This document shows positions 53,801 to 64,000 of a DNA stretch of 64,000 bases, piece after piece. Positions within the stretch are counted from its first letter, which is position 1, and the number at the start of each line of letters is the position of its first letter. The translations under genes were made by a program, and so were the position numbers. The notes under the pieces were generated by a model. It made no database searches and was not told where the DNA came from. It saw only the letters and a program-made list of their open reading frames with translations. Location of the stretch: assembly GCA_014925825.1 (NCBI GenBank), contig JACGCK010000020.1, positions 62,001 to 126,000 on the forward strand, given 5' to 3'. The DNA is from Pholiota molesta. Taxonomy: Eukaryota > Basidiomycota > Agaricomycetes > Agaricales > Strophariaceae.

Positions 53801-56800
53801 GTCATCGAATCCATCCAAAAACTTTTCGGGGTCCTGAAATGGGTGATGCAGAAGAAGTTTGGCATAACACCAGTTTTCAAATTGATCTTCATCATCAGGA
53901 TCTGGTCTATATCTTGGCCAAACATTTACCACATATGGCAAACCTCCACGTCTCCCTCTGCGAGTATATATAGTTCCCTTCCAGTCATACCAAGTAGCAA
54001 ACTCTAAGAGTGTGATGTCTTCCAATTCTGCCGGCCGTTTTTTATAACGCTCAAGTAACCCAATTCTTTCCACAGTTGAATTTTCAAAATTAAGCTCTGC
54101 TGCAACATCTGGAGAAACATTCAAATTTCTAACCCTTCTTGAACTTTGGACAAGTGGGCATCCAAAAAGAATATGACATGTTTCCTGACTGGAAATATCT
54201 CGTTCTGCACTAAAAGTTGAAAGCATTTTTTGATATGCAATACCAGCTGCATCTTCATCCTTGAGTCGTGAGATAGCAGTCTGAAGTGTTTTATCAAAAC
54301 TTGAAGATGATGTTTCGCCTTTGCTGGCATATTTAGCAACATATGCGATTACAGCCTCTTTATTGATTACCAGCCTAAAGTCAATGTTTGCTCTCCAGCC
54401 TAGAATAAATCCAGTGTTGAATGAGTTGAGGATTTCATCATTTCTTCTAGAATGAAACTGCAAAATCTCGATTTTGACCTCTAGCATATTCAGAAAATTC
54501 TCGACATTGTTTGGGAAATCCAAATCTGCAAAACTTCTCTCCGGTTTCCTTTTTCTGCCTCTCACAGTAGCCTGGTTGGCATGTACGGTGCCTTTGAAAA
54601 TGGTTCAACATTTCAGCAAGCTCCTTTTTTGTGTCCTCCAAAGTAGAAAACAACTGAGCTGATGGATGAATAGCAGCAGGAGGGGCATCTTTGTCAGGAT
54701 GCCAGGTGCAGACATGTTGATCCCAGAATGTAACAAATCTTTGCACATCAGCAGGATTATTTGTGTCAAGGTTGTCAATTTGTGGGGCATCACGGAACCA
54801 CAGAAAACCATGAATATGACTACTGCCTCGATGCTGCCATTCATACCTCCACCACCAATCAGTTACATTGAATGTGGGTTTGATGTAATGCTCAAAGAAT
54901 ATATTCCATCTTTTCTGAAAATAGTATGCAGCGATGGCAGGATTTTCATTCAAGTCCTTCATACGAACTCAATATGAATGAGCATCTTCAGGTGCTCCTG
55001 GAACATTGCTGGGCATGTGTTGATGCATATCCGGCCATTGAATATCTGCAGATGAGGCTGTAAAAAACACATGCGGAGATTGGCATTGGGGGGATCGAAT
55101 TTGAGCAATGAGGTCTTTCTGTGCTTTTTGCCAAAAAGGTTTTGATCCTGGCAATTTATCACCAGCATGAGAGACACGCTGAGCCAGTCTTTCTGCTTCT
55201 CCATTATTAATCATGTTTCGAATATCCTCCACTGTGAGTTGTCGGTCTTCTTTGTGTGTTGTTAAGTACCATGAAGACGCCTTTTTTGCAGATCTACGCA
55301 TTATTGTATTTAAGACCCAGTATCGGAATCTGGGATGTCTTGCAAATCTTCCATCCTTATAGCGCATAAGATGTCCAGCCCATTCCTCCATTGTCACAGC
55401 CTTTCCTCTTGGTGCTGTAAAATCTGCTTTTCCAGTAGGAAAAAGAGAAGGAAAAGCATCAATCGCAATAGCACGCCCACTATTTTCATTAATCGGTGTT
55501 CCTCTAACTTGAGGCATTGTTAGAATTATTGGTTGATCACCAATTGCAGCTGCAGCCCGTAGTTGATCCAATTCTGTTATACCCATGTGAAGATTTGGAA
55601 CAAAACCTCGTGAAAACATTGGTGGATTAGGTACTTCTGGATTTTCTGGAACATTATCCTGCTGAGGACCGACATCCTCAGCTGGTAGATCATCCATTTC
55701 CTCTGTAGAAATTGTTCTGATTCTGTCATGAACGGAACTATCGAGAGGAAGTTGCTGAAGAGCATTATGATCAATGGTGACACCTCGTGCGATAAATGTT
55801 GGATGATTTGCTTCTAGAAATTCAAGCCACCGCTGGACAATATTTCTTCGTACACGGAAATCCTGATATATATCCTCATTTGTAACTGGGTCCTGGCCTG
55901 CACGTCTCATGATAATAATGTCACACTCTTCAGGCAGAAGAGGTACTTTGGCATGTGCGATTGCATTTTCTCTAGGAAAATTGCAAGTATGTCCTGTGTA
56001 TTTATATTGGCCACCTCTTACTTGCCAAAGCTGTATTAATGCATGAACGGGGGCAATAAGCATCTCTTCCATCTGAGTAAGTGCAGGTAAATTTTCTAGT
56101 GGCATAGGAAGAGGATCCATTGCATTTGTCTCCTGGAATTTATTGTTCTTCTTGCAATTTGCACAAACACTGTCCCGTTTAACATTTAGATCGAACCACC
56201 GCTCATGACATTTGGAGCATGTTTCCATCTCAATTTCCATTAATTTACGCCTGACTGTGTCTAATCTAGCCTTTTCCTCTGCTGAAACAGCACATTCATC
56301 TAGAGGATTGATGTTAGGCTGATTTTGTGGAGGATCCAAAGGTGGATTGTTCTGGGCCACAGCAACAGGGGGATTTTCCAAGACATTTGGCATGGCAATT
56401 TGCTGCTGAATCTGTTCTACAGCAGTTGCCTGGTGTTGGGCTGCACGAGCACGAGCAGCCATTGCACGGTGTTGCTGTCTACAGCCTTCACATGTCTGCA
56501 TAGTACCAAAATTTACGATGGAAACATAGTGGCTACCCGTTGTGCACCATATCTGATTTGGATTTCTAGGATTAACAGACCGAGCAAGTCTGCGAGGATT
56601 GGGATGGCGCACATTGTGGATAATACGTGCAGGTGCAGGTAAATGTGGTTGGGATATAGGTAAAGGTGGTTGAGATGCAGGTTGAGGTGGTTGAGACTCG
56701 GACTGAGGAACCTCAATGACAGGAAAGATCATAGGTTCAGGCATATTGAAAACATCCTGAATCTGTTCATGCTGTAATCCAGCAATTTCAGCTTGAAAAA

Positions 56801-57215
56801 GACGCCGTTGTGGTTGAACGGCATCAACTTCCTCATCCATGACATTCTCTGCCAGCTGTAGAGATGGTGGAGTGATACGTCGATCTGTTCGTTTACTTCT
56901 CAATTCACGAGTTGCAGGTGTTGCAGGCAGACGAGACCTACGATTTCCAGATTGAGGAGTTCGCGGTGCTAAAGCTTGATTAATATAGTATTTAAAAAGA
57001 CAATATCTAAACATACTTTGTATAGCAGCTGTAGGAGTCTCAAGAATTTGGGAAAGAGTTCGTGGATTTGTAGAAGTTGGAAGTTGGATATGAGATGGGC
57101 CAGCTTGATTTTCAGGCTGTTGATTATTTTGTGATCGCTGAGATTGGTTCTGGGCATTTCGGCGTGCATTTCGGCGTGCAGACTTGGCCTGAGAAAGAGA
57201 AGGATCCCTGGGCAT
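50815..57215 (-). pseudogene. Helitron RepHel (HUH nuclease plus Pif1-like helicase), decayed
   Basis: Starts at the ATG at 57215. A CxxC-type zinc region (near 56270-56150) and the Helitron N-terminal domain (TLTMPQVRGTPINENSGRAI, near 55520) are followed by the HUH motif HRGSSHIHGF (near 54830), the two-Tyr motif AYVAKYASK (near 54330), then helicase Walker A GTAGTGKSF and Walker B LLILDEKS. Helicase C-terminal blocks run to 51858. Breaks seen: TGA at 54969-54971 and at 52755-52757 where Arg (CGA) is expected, and frame changes near 54465 and 52929. Introns remain near 52240 and 52400. The last nine codons (50815-50842 plus the duplication) are separated by the hAT element, so the reading frame now ends five codons into its terminal repeat. 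Confidence 0.9.
50851..51849. mobile_element. hAT-like non-autonomous element inserted in the Helitron gene
   Basis: 999 bp with inverted ends TAAGGCAGGACACGAG (left) and TAAGGCTGGACACGAG (right, reverse complement), matching the TARNG start typical of hAT ends. An exact 8-bp duplication TCAATGCC flanks it (50843-50850 and 51850-51857). Subterminal regions are packed with short repeats of the type CGAGTA, GCAAGTACTTG and GGATCCG in both orientations, as expected for transposase binding sites. The AT-rich middle has no transposase. It would depend on a hAT transposase elsewhere. Confidence 0.88.
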
Positions 57216-58332
57216 TTTAGCCAAACAGAAATAGGTGAAGGGAGGTCTTGGCCTGTTCACCCGATACGACGGTAGGAAGGATTTGGCCCTGTACCGTAAG
57301 TCTTGCCAAATAGGTTACTACACTAGTTTGGTATATTGTATACTAGTTCGGTTTGAAATTGACTACAAAAGAAATCTATCTAGCCCAGGATCCAAGCGGT
57401 TGTCCCAAGCACACTAGCCCTAATGACGTGCAATGTCTTCCTCAACTGGCGGGCAACTTAAGATTGCGGCCTGGTCAAGGGTACAAAGAATAGGCTAAAT
57501 GTGAAAGGTGTGTAAGAAGAGAAAAAGCCAGATGGTTTGAGACAGGTTTTCAAAGCTAAGTTTTGCATTAGAGATTAATAAGATAAAATCTCCAAATTTT
57601 CAAAACACCTTAAGACTTCTGATTGCTGCAGATCAAGAGATCAAGGCAGTGATTTGATCAGATTTCAATGTAAAGTCAAGCTGATTAATCACTACAAATC
57701 ATAGCATTGAGTAGGTAAAAAAAGAACAAAACAGATTATTTACACAATATTGACAGTTTGTAAGGCTTGCAGAATTTTGTTTGAGGCAGGAGAACACAGT
57801 TTGAAGTTGGTTTGAACCAAGATTGCGAGAGGCTGCGAAATCAGAGGCAGGAGGCTCATTTTGGAAGGTGGGAAAAAGTGCATGTGACACCGGTCAAAAC
57901 AGCCGTGTCCGGGTTTGACGAACCCGCAGCAGGACCCCTGATAATACTGATGGGGGTCGGATACTCCCACGCCTATGAGCGCGGCCGCAGGCCACGAAAA
58001 GTCGGATATTCCTTAGTAGACGAACACCTATATTGAACCCACATATCGGCCACATCTCTATGTCTCACAGACACCCAAGAGCTCCCCATTCTTTGGAGGT
58101 TGGATCCCAAACACCTAAGCATGGCTGAGCTAGGTTGACGACAATCACAAAATTCGGTATTATGTAGTCAGTAGAACTCGACAATGCAACATCTGTGCCC
58201 TAGCCGCGCAAAGGCGCACTTGTAATTATGAGTATTATGTATTCTCGACTGACCCCTATTGCTAGCACTGACGGGGACCAACGACCATTCCAAACAGTTC
58301 AATTCAGACCCTTCTCCGCTTCCTACAGTAAA
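57216..58332. other. Region between the Helitron and the Ulp1-transposase gene
   Basis: The Helitron 5' end (TC) is not identified. From about 57880 on, CG-rich palindromic patches (ggtcaaaac...gtttgac) and GTCGGAT motifs at 57956 and 57999 mark what is probably the left part of the next transposon. AACACCTATAT is at 58023-58033. Confidence 0.4.
58023..58115. repeat. Left copy of a direct repeat pair flanking the Ulp1-transposase gene
   Basis: AACACCTATAT (58023-58033) and GGTTGGATCCCAAACACC (58098-58115) recur in the same order and orientation at 63946-63956 and 63972-63991 beyond the gene. The shared order suggests related subterminal sequence on both sides of the element. Confidence 0.5.
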
Positions 58333-61300
58333 ATGTCAACTCAACACTGCCAAAAGATTGACCTCACATCTCATGAATCTGGTGACGACATTTCTGCTTG
58401 GATAAATCATGGGAAGGTCTATAGGAATGTTCCAGATTGCGTCTCAAATGAGCTTCTACGACGGTTAGTCAATTTCAATGATCAATCTGGCTGGTATTCA
58501 AACTTATTATAATAACTAGGTTGTCACTTTCAAAGGAGTCCAAAGAAATCTTGCCGTCTCCAGACCTCACAATATCAGAACTTCTTCAAGTCAATATTCC
58601 ACATCAACTCGTCGATTCAATGATTTTGAAGACACCGCTTTCTTGTTTCTCAGATTCTAGCCCAAATACTACCACCACCTTTCTAATCGAGCATAACCTC
58701 CCTTCCCCAAATTTCCTAAAGCACCTTCGTGCCACCGCTGGTCAAGCCATGCTCGATGGAAAGTTTTCAGTGTTGGACTGGAGTAACGCGCATATCTTCC
58801 TACCTTTTGAAGCCCTTGAATTTTGGGGAGTCCTCCTGGAAGTGGCAGCTGCGAAGAAGGCTTGGTCGGAAGCAGAGAAATGGATTGCCGTACACAAAGA
58901 CTTACCAACAGGCATTATTATGCAGATAAAAAGGGTGTTCAACAGCGTTCCTTGGAGTGCCAGACTTCGTTCCCTTGGTGGCCATGTTTCCGTCACCGAG
59001 ATGGCGGAGTACTTCTCATGTTTAGAGCTTTCGGGAAGTCATGTTGATACCCTCCTCGAGCTTCTGCGGATCCGTTTACTCAAGAATAATTTATTGAATG
59101 AAAGTATTTTGGTGAACACAACCTTTTTTGATTTTCTCGCCGCAGTTGAAAGCGACTATGCACCTACTTCTGCTACGATGGAAGTTCAGAAGATCGGCCG
59201 CTACCTGGAGCAAAATTCCAAGGAAACCTCGATCATCGGAATCACATACTCTCCGCCTCATCATTGGGCAGCCATTCATATCAAACTCTCTCCATCGGGT
59301 GTTCAAGTTCAGTTAGGCGACTCGATACGACGCAAATGTCCCAAGTCCTTGATGGCAGGCATCAAAGCATTCCTTAATTCACATCTCAACCCGAATTCTT
59401 CCATTACATTCCATGATGACCTTGAATGCGCCATTCAAACCGATGGATATTCCTGTCCAATCATCGCAGTCAACACTATCAAGCACTCTTTGTTTGGAAC
59501 AGCACTATGGACAGAGATCAATCGGGAGCGTATTCACATAGAAGACTTTTTCGACACGATGCAATTTTGCTTCCCAATTATATCACCCATGCCAGCACAT
59601 CAGGACCATTCCTTTGCTTCGACGATAATAATGCCACCCAATCATTCTGTTCCACCTGAGATGTTGCCTCTTGCTCCTATCCATCCGTTTTTCCTTCAGG
59701 CTCATCAACAACCCAAAAAAAGACGCAGTTCAATAGGACTTCCAAATCCAATTGCGCCTCGACTTCCATTGGCAAAGCGACCACGAATTGCGGCAAAGCC
59801 ACCAGCTGTTCAGTCGGATTTGAAGGAAGGACTCAGCAAGACTGCAATTCGGAAACGTATGCTGAAACAGAACGTCCGAAACGGTACTTTTGTACGCGAT
59901 CCGTCAAAATGGGACAAATATGTTATGAAATTGAAGGAGCTGGATCCGAATGTTGAGGTCAACGCTACAGATGCTATGAAAGCTTGTCATGTCCGTCACT
60001 CCAGATGTGCACAGTATCTTATAATGGCAACTGTTTACGATATTACTGTTTTCAAGAATCATGTTAAGCAGTGCAATGCAAAGGCAACAATACACCATCC
60101 AGCAGCAAACACACGTACCTTGGATGCTTTACTAGTAGGGGCAGTCATCACACTCCGCACTGATCAGAAAAGAGAAAACCTTGCGGCTTCGAGCTTGACG
60201 ACGTTGACGTGGCCATGTCCTGGTCTGACAGCAAGCAACAACCCCCGTATTCGTCAATATCTGAAACGGACATCGTCTCTATCTGCAGGTGGAATAAGCG
60301 AGCATAAAGTAGCTCATAGGCTGTTTGCAGATGACCTTCTCTCGTTGAATGATATTCAGCGAGAAGCTGTTCAGATTGAACAGCTGAATACGCACCGCTG
60401 GCGCAATGACCATGAACGCAAGCGAGTCTTCGCCAGTGGCTCATTTCCGTGCTTGAAAGTTGCCACTCTACCACTGGACTATGAATCTGGAGACATTGTT
60501 CCTCCATGTGTGTTGTGCGATGCCCTCCTAAACTTGCGGGCATTTGTCAGTGCAATCAATCGGCCACTTCCAGAACGAAAGAACAGAATTTACACTCCTC
60601 ACCTTTATCAAAGCCGTGTACTCGGAGAACGATTCGCACGAAATCAGGGCCTGGCAAGGCTTCTCGAAGATTCAGATTCGGATGGGTCTGAAGATGGTCT
60701 GGAGTTATCAAAAGAAAGGCCTACCATTCCAAAGCAAAAGGACTTGTTTTGTCGCTTCATACGTCAATTCGTGGCAGGGCACTTTGACAAGAAACCTGTC
60801 TTCCTTGATCTGGTGGCAGTGATGACAGATACTGCTGAGCGAGAAGCTCGCGGCCGTGGCATGCAAAACAAGAAGTATCCTCCCGCTTTGGATGATTGGC
60901 TGCATGCACTCCAATGTATCTGTCCTGCAGCTTTTCGATCATTTTTAGCAGCATTTGATGGCCGTTCAGAGCGAAGCTATCTACATATACGGTCTCTGAA
61001 TCCTTCCTTTACACAAGGAATTACCCTGCAGACTCTGGAACGAGCAATACAATATCTCAAAGACTACAATTATCCAGAAGGTGCTCCGCTCGCAGTAGGC
61101 GTTGACGATACAAAGCTTTTGCCATCGCTCAAACCCTATTTTGACACCACCAAGGAAAAATGGTTCTTACTTGGAAGCATTGGAGAGCCGATGGAAATTG
61201 TCGATGTTGAATCCTTGCAGAAGCAGATCATAGATGCTGCTGACTTGAAAGCTGAGAAATTACGGCTTTGGACATTGAGTATACCTTTGCCTCGAGTTCC

Positions 61301-63873
61301 ACCTTTGATTCTCGCCGCAGCTCCAATTTCATCCAAGATGAGAGCATCCGAGCTCGCAGACATGGATATCTCCCTTCTCCAGCTCTTACTCGCACCTCCA
61401 TTCAATTTCAGAATCATTTCCTTAGGATCTGATGGTGCGACTGTGGAACGCGAAGCCCGGCGTGAACTCGAGCGCAAAAAGTTTGTCTATTACATACACC
61501 ACATTATTCCTCATCCCGATCCATCCCGATCGCCTCTCAAGATCGAAATTCTACGAAAAGGTGATCATGCAATGGCAATCATTCAAGATTCCAAACATGC
61601 CAGAAAAACTATCAGGAACGGCATGTTCACAGGAGCAAAATGTCTTACTTTGGGACGTTATACAGTTCACTACGAGCAAGTACGGAATCTCGCTTTTAAA
61701 GAGAATTCCCCCTTGTATTCCCGCGATGTTGACAAGCTCGATAGACAAGATGACCGGGCAGCAGCAAGATTATTCGCCGCTCGCACGTTGGAGTTTACCA
61801 TTGAAAATCTGGATAATGAACTGGGATTAATCATTTATCTATTCGTATTCGGAGAGATGATTGACGCCTACCAAAACCGACAGATTACCCATTTAGATCG
61901 CGTCAAGATGGTCCTCCGTACTCACTTCTTCAAAGACTTCTGGAAGAAATTCCTTGAAGAAGGTGGTTATCCAATCACGCAGCATTTTATGTCAAAAGAA
62001 GCTGACGACATTACCGATATAATCATCAACGGCCTCATTGCCCTGATATTCATTCACCGAGATTATCTTGACCAGCCATTCCCACTCCTCCCTTGGCCTC
62101 ATGGAAGTGAACCAGGAGAACATGTCTTTGGGTTCCTTCGCGAAGATTTCCCCGATTTTTCGATGCTGGATGTTCTGCGTTTGATCCCCAAGATTGGCGT
62201 ACGTTTGATGGCTGCGTGCAAGAGTAAACATCTGAAAGGCGACTTCAGAAAAACTGCTTCGGGATACTCACACACCTACTTCGATGGTACGGATGCCAAT
62301 CTTCAGTTTTTAGCTGTTTTTCCGACAGACGAGGAAATACAAATGGCCGCTGCTTCTGCTTATGATGAGGCATTAAGCTTGTGGATTCTCCTCGGATACA
62401 CACCTAGCGAAAGTTCAGGAACCACTGGTGTGGCCTTTACAGGTGGGAATGATAGTATCGTCACCGAGGAAGCAGAAGACGAGAGTCTGATCTGCTGCAA
62501 CACCGTGGATCAAGTCGATATGCAATCAGATCGACGCGATCTTGAGGATGCACTTGTCGAGGCTGCTGAATTACGCAGCAAAGGTATGCCCTCGAATAAG
62601 ACCGATGAAGCACTTGATGAATGTGGATATGCCGCCGCCGCGCTGAGTATAAATGACATAGAACAGATGTAAGTTTCCTTTTTATACTATATGGCAGAGA
62701 CTTACTTATAAGTTTGATCAGTGAATCACTTCCCAGTAATGACCCGGCCGCACTGGACGAGATTCGCTCTGCTTTAGCCGTGATTTTATCGACAATCACA
62801 GCTAGCAATGCGTCAGGTCAGGAGACTGTGATGCAATTAATCAAGCAGGCAACAGATTCAAAAAGCGCCAACTTACCTATAACATCAGAAGCAGATGCCA
62901 TCGACCCTTTCAAAACCCTTCCAATATCCAACATCAATGAGGCCGATCTAACTGAGTTGGTGGCAATTCGTATGAGAAACCAATGTCGCGAGGGAGCTGA
63001 AGGTGTACGCACTAGAAAGTCAACAATATCTGATCAGGAAGGTCCATCACCGACAGCGAGCAACATCAAACCTTTATCAGAACGCCAAAAGCTCGCGCAG
63101 AAGATCCATGAAATCGTACGGCTCGAGGAGTCACAGCAAGGGTCAAGCACTGGCCTCAACCGACGTGTACGCTGGGAGAAATCCGCGGCCGGGTCGATTG
63201 CTACCCTGATAGAGGCCGATGTCATTACTGGCAATGTTGCGAATGCGAGAGTTGCTGCGCGAGCTGGAGCGGATGAAGTGAGTGGACGTCAGTTGGTTTT
63301 GCTGGCAAAACTAACACTGGTTGATAGATAATCAGAAGGCGCCGAAAAGAGTTCCCCAACGTACCAGGAATGGACCCAAATGATCTTGCCACTGCAAAAG
63401 TCAACCTCATGTTGAAGCTGAAACGCGGATCGTTCGGCGTCGTTGCATATGACGGTGAATTGATGATAGGCAAGGTTATTACAATGTATGAAAAGGGAGG
63501 TGGCAAGGTCGCAAAACATGGATGGGTCTCTGAAGTAACATCCGTGGGATTCATCTCTTATCTTTCCGTGCAAATTTGGAAGCAAACTGCACGAAATCAG
63601 CGCTTTTTCCGCGCTATTTGGCACCCAAAACTCAAACAACATGGTTTGCCTCGTTTTGCCCATCTTCCTGCTGCTGCATTCCTTCTTCATCTTCCTCCTT
63701 CATCATTCCGGTCCCACAACAATGAAGCGGCACTAGAATTGGTGCCTAGCTTTTTTGAGAGCATTTTTATGAAGATGCTCGTGCAAGATAAGCAAGTTCT
63801 CGACGCCGTGAAGTGCTTACTCAAGCGCCCGATGAAAAAAGACATCCGAAATGACGAGAACGACGGTATCTAG
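58333..63873 (+). CDS. Ulp1-protease plus probable DDE transposase, 1793 residues
   Basis: Four exons (58333-58463, 58520-62668, 62722-63277, 63328-63873) join in frame without a stop. After an N-terminal helical region comes a Ulp1/C48 cysteine protease: His in PPHHWAAIHI (about 291), Asp in QLGDSI (about 309), Cys in GYSCPI (about 354). A Lys/Arg-rich stretch with AKRPRIAAKP could be a nuclear signal. A Cys/His cluster (CHVRHSRC...HVKQC, near 530-560) may bind zinc. Further on, VDDTKL (about 905), LGSDGATVE (about 1014) and SEPGEHVFG (about 1239) have the order of an RNase H-fold DDE catalytic set. The C-terminal 450 residues contain a basic helical region. Host genes rarely have this build; a cut-and-paste transposon is the best reading. 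An earlier in-frame ATG is at 58228. Confidence 0.75.
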
Positions 63874-63945
63874 GTTGTATGTAGCCGTAGGAATTTTTTT
63901 GGATTTTTTTCTATTTTATTAGTATTTTAGAGGTCGAATACAAAA

Positions 63946-63991
63946 AACACCTATATCAGCCGAAATTTTTAGGTCGGATCCCGAAAACACC
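63946..63991. repeat. Right copy of the direct repeat pair
   Basis: AACACCTATAT followed by GGTCGGATCCCGAAAACACC, matching the left copy with a shorter spacer. A further aggtcgaata unit precedes it at 63931. The element end itself probably lies beyond base 64000. Confidence 0.5.
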
Positions 63992-64000
63992 CAAAATCTG

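Follow-up and report, generated by a model that had tools for sequence, protein, structure and literature searches.

A transposon with a four-exon gene

The 64,000-nucleotide stretch of Pholiota molesta DNA analysed here (the window) contains, at its right-hand end, a DNA transposon of 6158 bp on the forward strand that runs from position 57931 to 64000 and terminates at 64088 (C113:126088), 88 bp beyond the window, as read from the continuation of the contig. The element carries a four-exon gene for a putative transposase joined to a cysteine protease of the Ulp1 type. The original prediction, whose interpretation we find supported in part, had given the span as 58023..64000, which starts inside the element and ends short of its right end. 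The gene model it proposed, in which four exons join to 1793 residues free of stops, was borne out by translation, which ends in a stop codon, and by homologue alignments over the introns.

All four exons lie on the forward strand. Exon 1 (58333-58463, with an upstream in-frame ATG at 58228) is followed by exon 2 (58520-62668), exon 3 (62722-63277), and exon 4 (63328-63873), which runs to the stop; the intervening introns measure 56, 53, and 50 nt, and all are of the GT...AG type. Six of the eight homologues shown align through intron 1 (P0005 and P0046 being without that part), and all eight align through introns 2 and 3. Exon 2 is a single open frame that encodes the N-terminal helical domain, the Ulp1-type protease, a zinc-finger-like region, and the transposase core, while exons 3 and 4 supply the C-terminal region. 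Because protease and core both lie within exon 2, their fusion is independent of splicing. The stop-to-stop frame around this exon comprises 1396 codons, a length with a chance of ~1e-32 under independent bases of the same composition. The deposited model P0002 (811 aa) covers only the C-terminal part of the gene and reads intron 2 differently.

Predicted protease and transposase domains

The Ulp1/C48-type protease domain (residues ~225-400; 59061..59588, forward strand) was recognised by profile match, AlphaFold model, Foldseek comparison, and conservation. A 46-sequence profile matched yeast Ulp1 (1euv) with an E value of 7.8e-11, and the predicted model, in which the predicted local distance difference test score (pLDDT) exceeds 90 over most of the first 350 residues, had SENP3, Ulp1, and SENP2 as its top Foldseek matches. 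The domain has the features of the C48/Ulp1 family, namely a predicted Ulp1 fold, a His-Asp-Cys set (H292 at 59262, D311 at 59319, and C356 at 59454), and the oxyanion Gln (Q350 at 59436). The Pfam model PF02902 was matched by 13 of 31 relatives (E ≤0.1).

The RNase H-like core (61071..62200, forward strand) follows, with D906 at 61104, D1015 at 61431, D1067 and H1070 at 61587-61598, a helical insertion, and E1244 at 62118; the order of a His-Asp-Cys set (H292/D311/C356) ahead of a D-D-E set (D906/D1015/E1244) is thus as originally described. The predicted core model contains an RNase H fold, the D-D-E residues, and the helical insertion between strand 5 and the last helix, and together with its structural matches it upholds the RNase H-like context proposed for the triad. 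Directly after the strand at model residues 573-579 stands D1067-x2-H1070, a [C/D](2)H signature whose D is present in 78 of 80 aligned rows and whose H in 79.

Two regions ahead of the core may contact DNA. A conserved motif of the form (H/C)-x2-C...H-x3-C (residues 537-562; 59997..60074, forward strand) resembles a zinc finger and may bind zinc, and other conserved Cys residues lie at 610, 688, 707, and 710. Preceding the first catalytic strand, residues ~827-865 (60867..60983, forward strand) align, as mapped by eye, with the segment of the relative P0113 that matches PF12017, the helix-turn-helix (HTH) model of P transposases; PF12017 was matched by 8 of the 31 relatives (E ≤0.1), and the window protein and its close full-length paralogue P0007 fall short of it.

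The association of the two enzymatic domains was examined across the relatives. The H-D-Q-C residues are intact in 74 of 90 aligned rows and the D-D-E residues in 73 of 90 (window protein included), and on this alignment the two active sites are conserved to a like degree. Distances of the protease and of the core correlate (r 0.79 over 80 sequences; none of 999 permutations reached this value), which fits long co-inheritance, with host-tree kinship left in the statistic. In a distant lineage (~30% identity), weak Ulp1 matches were found upstream at C68 (E 5e-5; HW...DS and Q-x-D...C-G) and C619 (E 9e-4; HW...DS only), so the association is probably old; no such match was seen upstream at C186, of the same lineage.

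Element ends, insertion site, and genomic copies

The left terminal inverted repeat (TIR; 57931..57964, forward strand) is perfect over 15 bp (AGGACCCCTGATAAT) and imperfect up to 34 bp (GGTCGGATAC), and its right partner terminates at 64088. The element is flanked by an exact 8-bp target-site duplication (TSD), CCCGCAGC, with the left copy at 57923..57930 and the right copy beyond the window at 64089-64096. When joined, the flanks matched across the junction at five further genomic places (C617 at 99%; C101, C95, and C38 at 96%; C300 at 79%), and a single target copy was found at the junction in three of the four sites fetched (L045, L046 with one change, and L047); at the fourth, L048, the junction was not located with the probe used. 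The element therefore lies inside a repeated sequence, other copies of which are without it.

A search of the genome with the core protein gave 17 matches at eight loci, five of which (C113, C35, C49, C603, and C619) have a TIR pair with an exact 8-bp TSD; the C603 copy has internal stops. At C115, C186, and C68 a search extending 4.5 kb from the protein match gave no TIR pair with a TSD, with one TIR present at C115; a single TIR was also seen at C75, from the TIR listing and a 1.2-kb read. The 15-bp TIR (≤1 mismatch) occurs 27 times in the genome, compared with twice for a reversed control pattern. Among these occurrences, besides those at C113, six contigs each carry one opposed TIR pair, all six of which, when read, had an exact 8-bp TSD; five of these units measure 640-808 bp and one 12.4 kb. 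At C104 and C411, both ends of the window element are present (81-86% identity), and the two units share 98% identity over their longest common stretch. Across the 11 TIR pairs examined, the duplication was exactly 8 bp in every case, not 7 or 9, and the termini read AGGAC or AGGCC; the ends were located by TIR alone for C603 and the six opposed pairs, while the remaining four came from a search in which an 8-bp match was a requirement. Copies with shared inverted ends and target duplications, suggested at the outset as a check, are present in this genome.

The 12.4-kb unit (C389:254779-267141; L041, L043, L044, L042) resembles the others in TIR type and is likewise bounded by an exact 8-bp TSD. 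Inside it, unrelated open frames (454 and 525 codons) are present as two direct copies separated by 5.7 kb, and a transposase of the window element's family was not found there. The paralogues at C49 and C603 have perfect 31-bp TIRs, the same length as those of the Drosophila P element (PMC7776569), an agreement that is probably coincidence.

To the left of the element lies a Helitron-like protein (DUF6570 and Helitron_like_N; 54969-57194, minus strand), and the repeat that took the insertion starts upstream of it. To the right, ~530 bp from the element and beyond the TSD, there is a 1023-codon stop-to-stop frame (L002:1622-4693, forward strand; window-equivalent 64622-67693).

Probable assignment to the P superfamily

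We read the element as a cut-and-paste DNA transposon of the P superfamily that looks autonomous. Its one protein would join a P-type transposase to a helical domain at the N terminus and a cysteine protease of the Ulp1/SENP type, and we put the probability of this reading at roughly 85%. The sequence shows complete ends, an exact 8-bp TSD, unoccupied paralogous sites, and conserved residues of both active sites, as well as deletion derivatives that share the element's ends and duplication length, and with these its mobility; the models predict a P-element-like core fold and a Ulp1-like protease fold. The match of the predicted core to the P-element fold by structure comparison, the D(2)H that follows strand 5, and the HTH of some relatives agree with the loose resemblance to P/THAP9 transposases that had been noted in the order of motifs.

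The termini and duplications also set the element apart from CACTA and MULE elements, which the original prediction had judged unlike its core. CACTA/EnSpm elements have CACTA-type termini and short (2-3 bp) TSDs, and the TSDs of MULEs are as a rule 9 bp or longer; the window element differs from the former in its AGGAC or AGGCC ends and 8-bp duplications, and from the latter in its duplications. A model for the Kyakuja-Dileera-Zisupton (KDZ) transposases is present in Pfam-A, and none was seen among the Pfam matches of the exon-2 protein or its relatives, KDZ structures lying outside the comparison. The 8-bp TSD alone is not diagnostic of the P superfamily, because hAT elements make 8-bp duplications too.

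Several observations weigh against this assignment. With an E cut-off of 1, the exon-2 protein has no match to any Pfam model, PF02902 included, and P0007 matches neither PF12017 nor PF02902; a 21-sequence core profile gave no sequence match to the P-element chain. A THAP model is present in Pfam-A, and none appears in the Pfam matches of exon 2 or the relatives, with exon 1's 44 residues outside the scan. Drosophila P-element TIRs begin with CA. Those of the window element begin with AGG, as against CA in zebrafish P elements (PMC10983969), and the D906-D1015 spacing is 109 residues versus 70-73 in THAP9 and DmTNP. When compared with the GTP contacts described in PMC7776569, D1159 stands in the place of D444 (79 of 80 rows) and E1241 in that of D528 (71 of 80), both assigned by spacing only, and the contacts appear recognisable only in part. 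The protease Cys is followed by Pro in the window copy, where 63 of 80 rows have Gly and three have Pro, and at the DNA level a 1001-base stretch of the gene has only one match in the genome. The link to P elements is thus drawn from predicted fold, motifs, the HTH of some relatives, and TSD length, and the case as a whole from sequence and prediction.

Some of these features would also suit a DDE lineage of independent origin with features like those of P, the under-described superfamily first proposed: the core profile without a match to the P-element chain, the window protein without a Pfam match, the AGG termini, the undetected THAP domain, and the long D-D spacing all speak for it. Given the P-element fold match and the HTH in some relatives, we set this explanation aside as the leading one and regard it as unlikely. 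That the gene is a domesticated host gene of transposon origin is very improbable; its intact reading frame and the single-copy DNA stretch would fit such an origin, but its TIRs are intact and its TSD exact, the target sequence is unoccupied at five other places, four paralogues have TIRs and TSDs of their own, and miniature derivatives are 98% identical. The host-gene reading was rejected on the TIRs, TSDs, and unoccupied sites.

Possible role of the protease

For a P-superfamily transposon of this kind, the zinc-finger-like region and HTH would bind the repeats, both terminal and subterminal; the DDE core would cut the element's ends and join them to the target at an 8-bp spacing, and the helical insertion may fill the role of the P-element GTP-binding domain. 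We consider it about an even chance that the protease acts on the transposase, or on host proteins of repair or silencing, to strip off SUMO or a related modifier and so favour transposition, in which case the element may edit its host's protein tags while moving. The main alternative, somewhat less probable, is that it cleaves the element's own protein, processing it as a polyprotein, or has ubiquitin or NEDD8 as its substrate, instead of serving as a deSUMOylase in trans. The protein is very large, a low-confidence stretch follows the protease (pLDDT <50 at model residues 357-443), and SUMO, NEDD8, and ubiquitin proteases are all among the structures matched; the best-ranked matches are nevertheless SENP/Ulp1. 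More speculatively, an N-terminal SUMO protease may have become fixed at an early stage in a fungal P branch, before the ~30%-identical sublineages split, with another zinc-binding module in THAP's place, such that local deSUMOylation licenses transposition or escapes SUMO-dependent silencing; we offer this scenario tentatively.

Distribution of relatives

A protein search recovered 140 related proteins (E ≤1e-3), and organisms and names were read from the 120 matches listed. The readable hosts among these were fungi, among them Flammula, Lactarius, Russula, Pleurotus, Mycena, Amanita, Trametes, and Rhizoctonia, which belong to the Agaricomycetes; among the matches listed in two protein searches, no named non-fungal protein was seen. 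Database names of single relatives already tag one or other domain, and the family accounts for a number of large proteins of mushroom genomes that are labelled 'hypothetical'. Two relatives, P0023 and P0100, are deposited as 'Methionine--tRNA ligase, mitochondrial', which probably reflects an annotation error or the fusion of gene models.

P elements have been described mainly in animals. In the open-access full-text literature, subscription literature lying mostly outside this scope, we found neither a P-type core with Ulp1 nor P elements of mushrooms, and nothing found had linked the P-element core to a protease before. The parts of PMC6416283 and PMC5791352 available to us likewise contain neither; PMC5791352 describes the P superfamily as mostly restricted to Drosophila, and it and PMC7776569 present P elements as mainly animal. 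A P lineage found across many genera of mushrooms, its Ulp1 domain conserved and in frame, would offer a testable case for why unrelated transposons (MULE, Ginger, and Crypton) carry this domain, and a P-type transposase without a detectable THAP domain a system for asking what THAP and GTP are needed for.

Comparison with known systems

Fungal KDZ elements are likewise DDE transposons that in Agaricomycotina can carry an accessory enzyme gene, but that gene encodes a TET/JBP dioxygenase, and the part of PMC12730594 available to us does not mention Ulp1. In oomycete Cryptons a Ulp1-related C48 peptidase has been reported on a mobile element that uses a tyrosine recombinase and is without a DDE transposase (PMC3212892), and in the Ulp1-bearing MULEs and Ginger1 the domain is part of a transposon protein (PMC2836005). 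In Ginger1 the Ulp1 domain is C-terminal on a Gypsy-integrase-like core, whereas in the window element it is N-terminal on a P-type core; the authors of that study proposed that Ulp1 and OTU domains aid transposition via repair factors (PMC2836005).

The Drosophila P element and THAP9 (structures 6p5a and 6pe2) differ from the window element in several respects. The latter has no detected THAP domain, a domain restricted to animals according to the review PMC7776569, and has instead another zinc-finger-like region and an N-terminal Ulp1 fusion; it has AGG termini and a fungal host, and measures 6.2 kb with a protein of 1793 aa, compared with 2.9 kb for the P element (PMC7776569). The two nevertheless share an RNase H core with D-D-E, predicted in the window element, the D(2)H after strand 5, a helical insertion ahead of the last helix, and, in some of the relatives here, an HTH before the core, as well as the 8-bp TSD and internally deleted derivatives known from P elements of zebrafish and fly (PMC7776569, PMC10983969).
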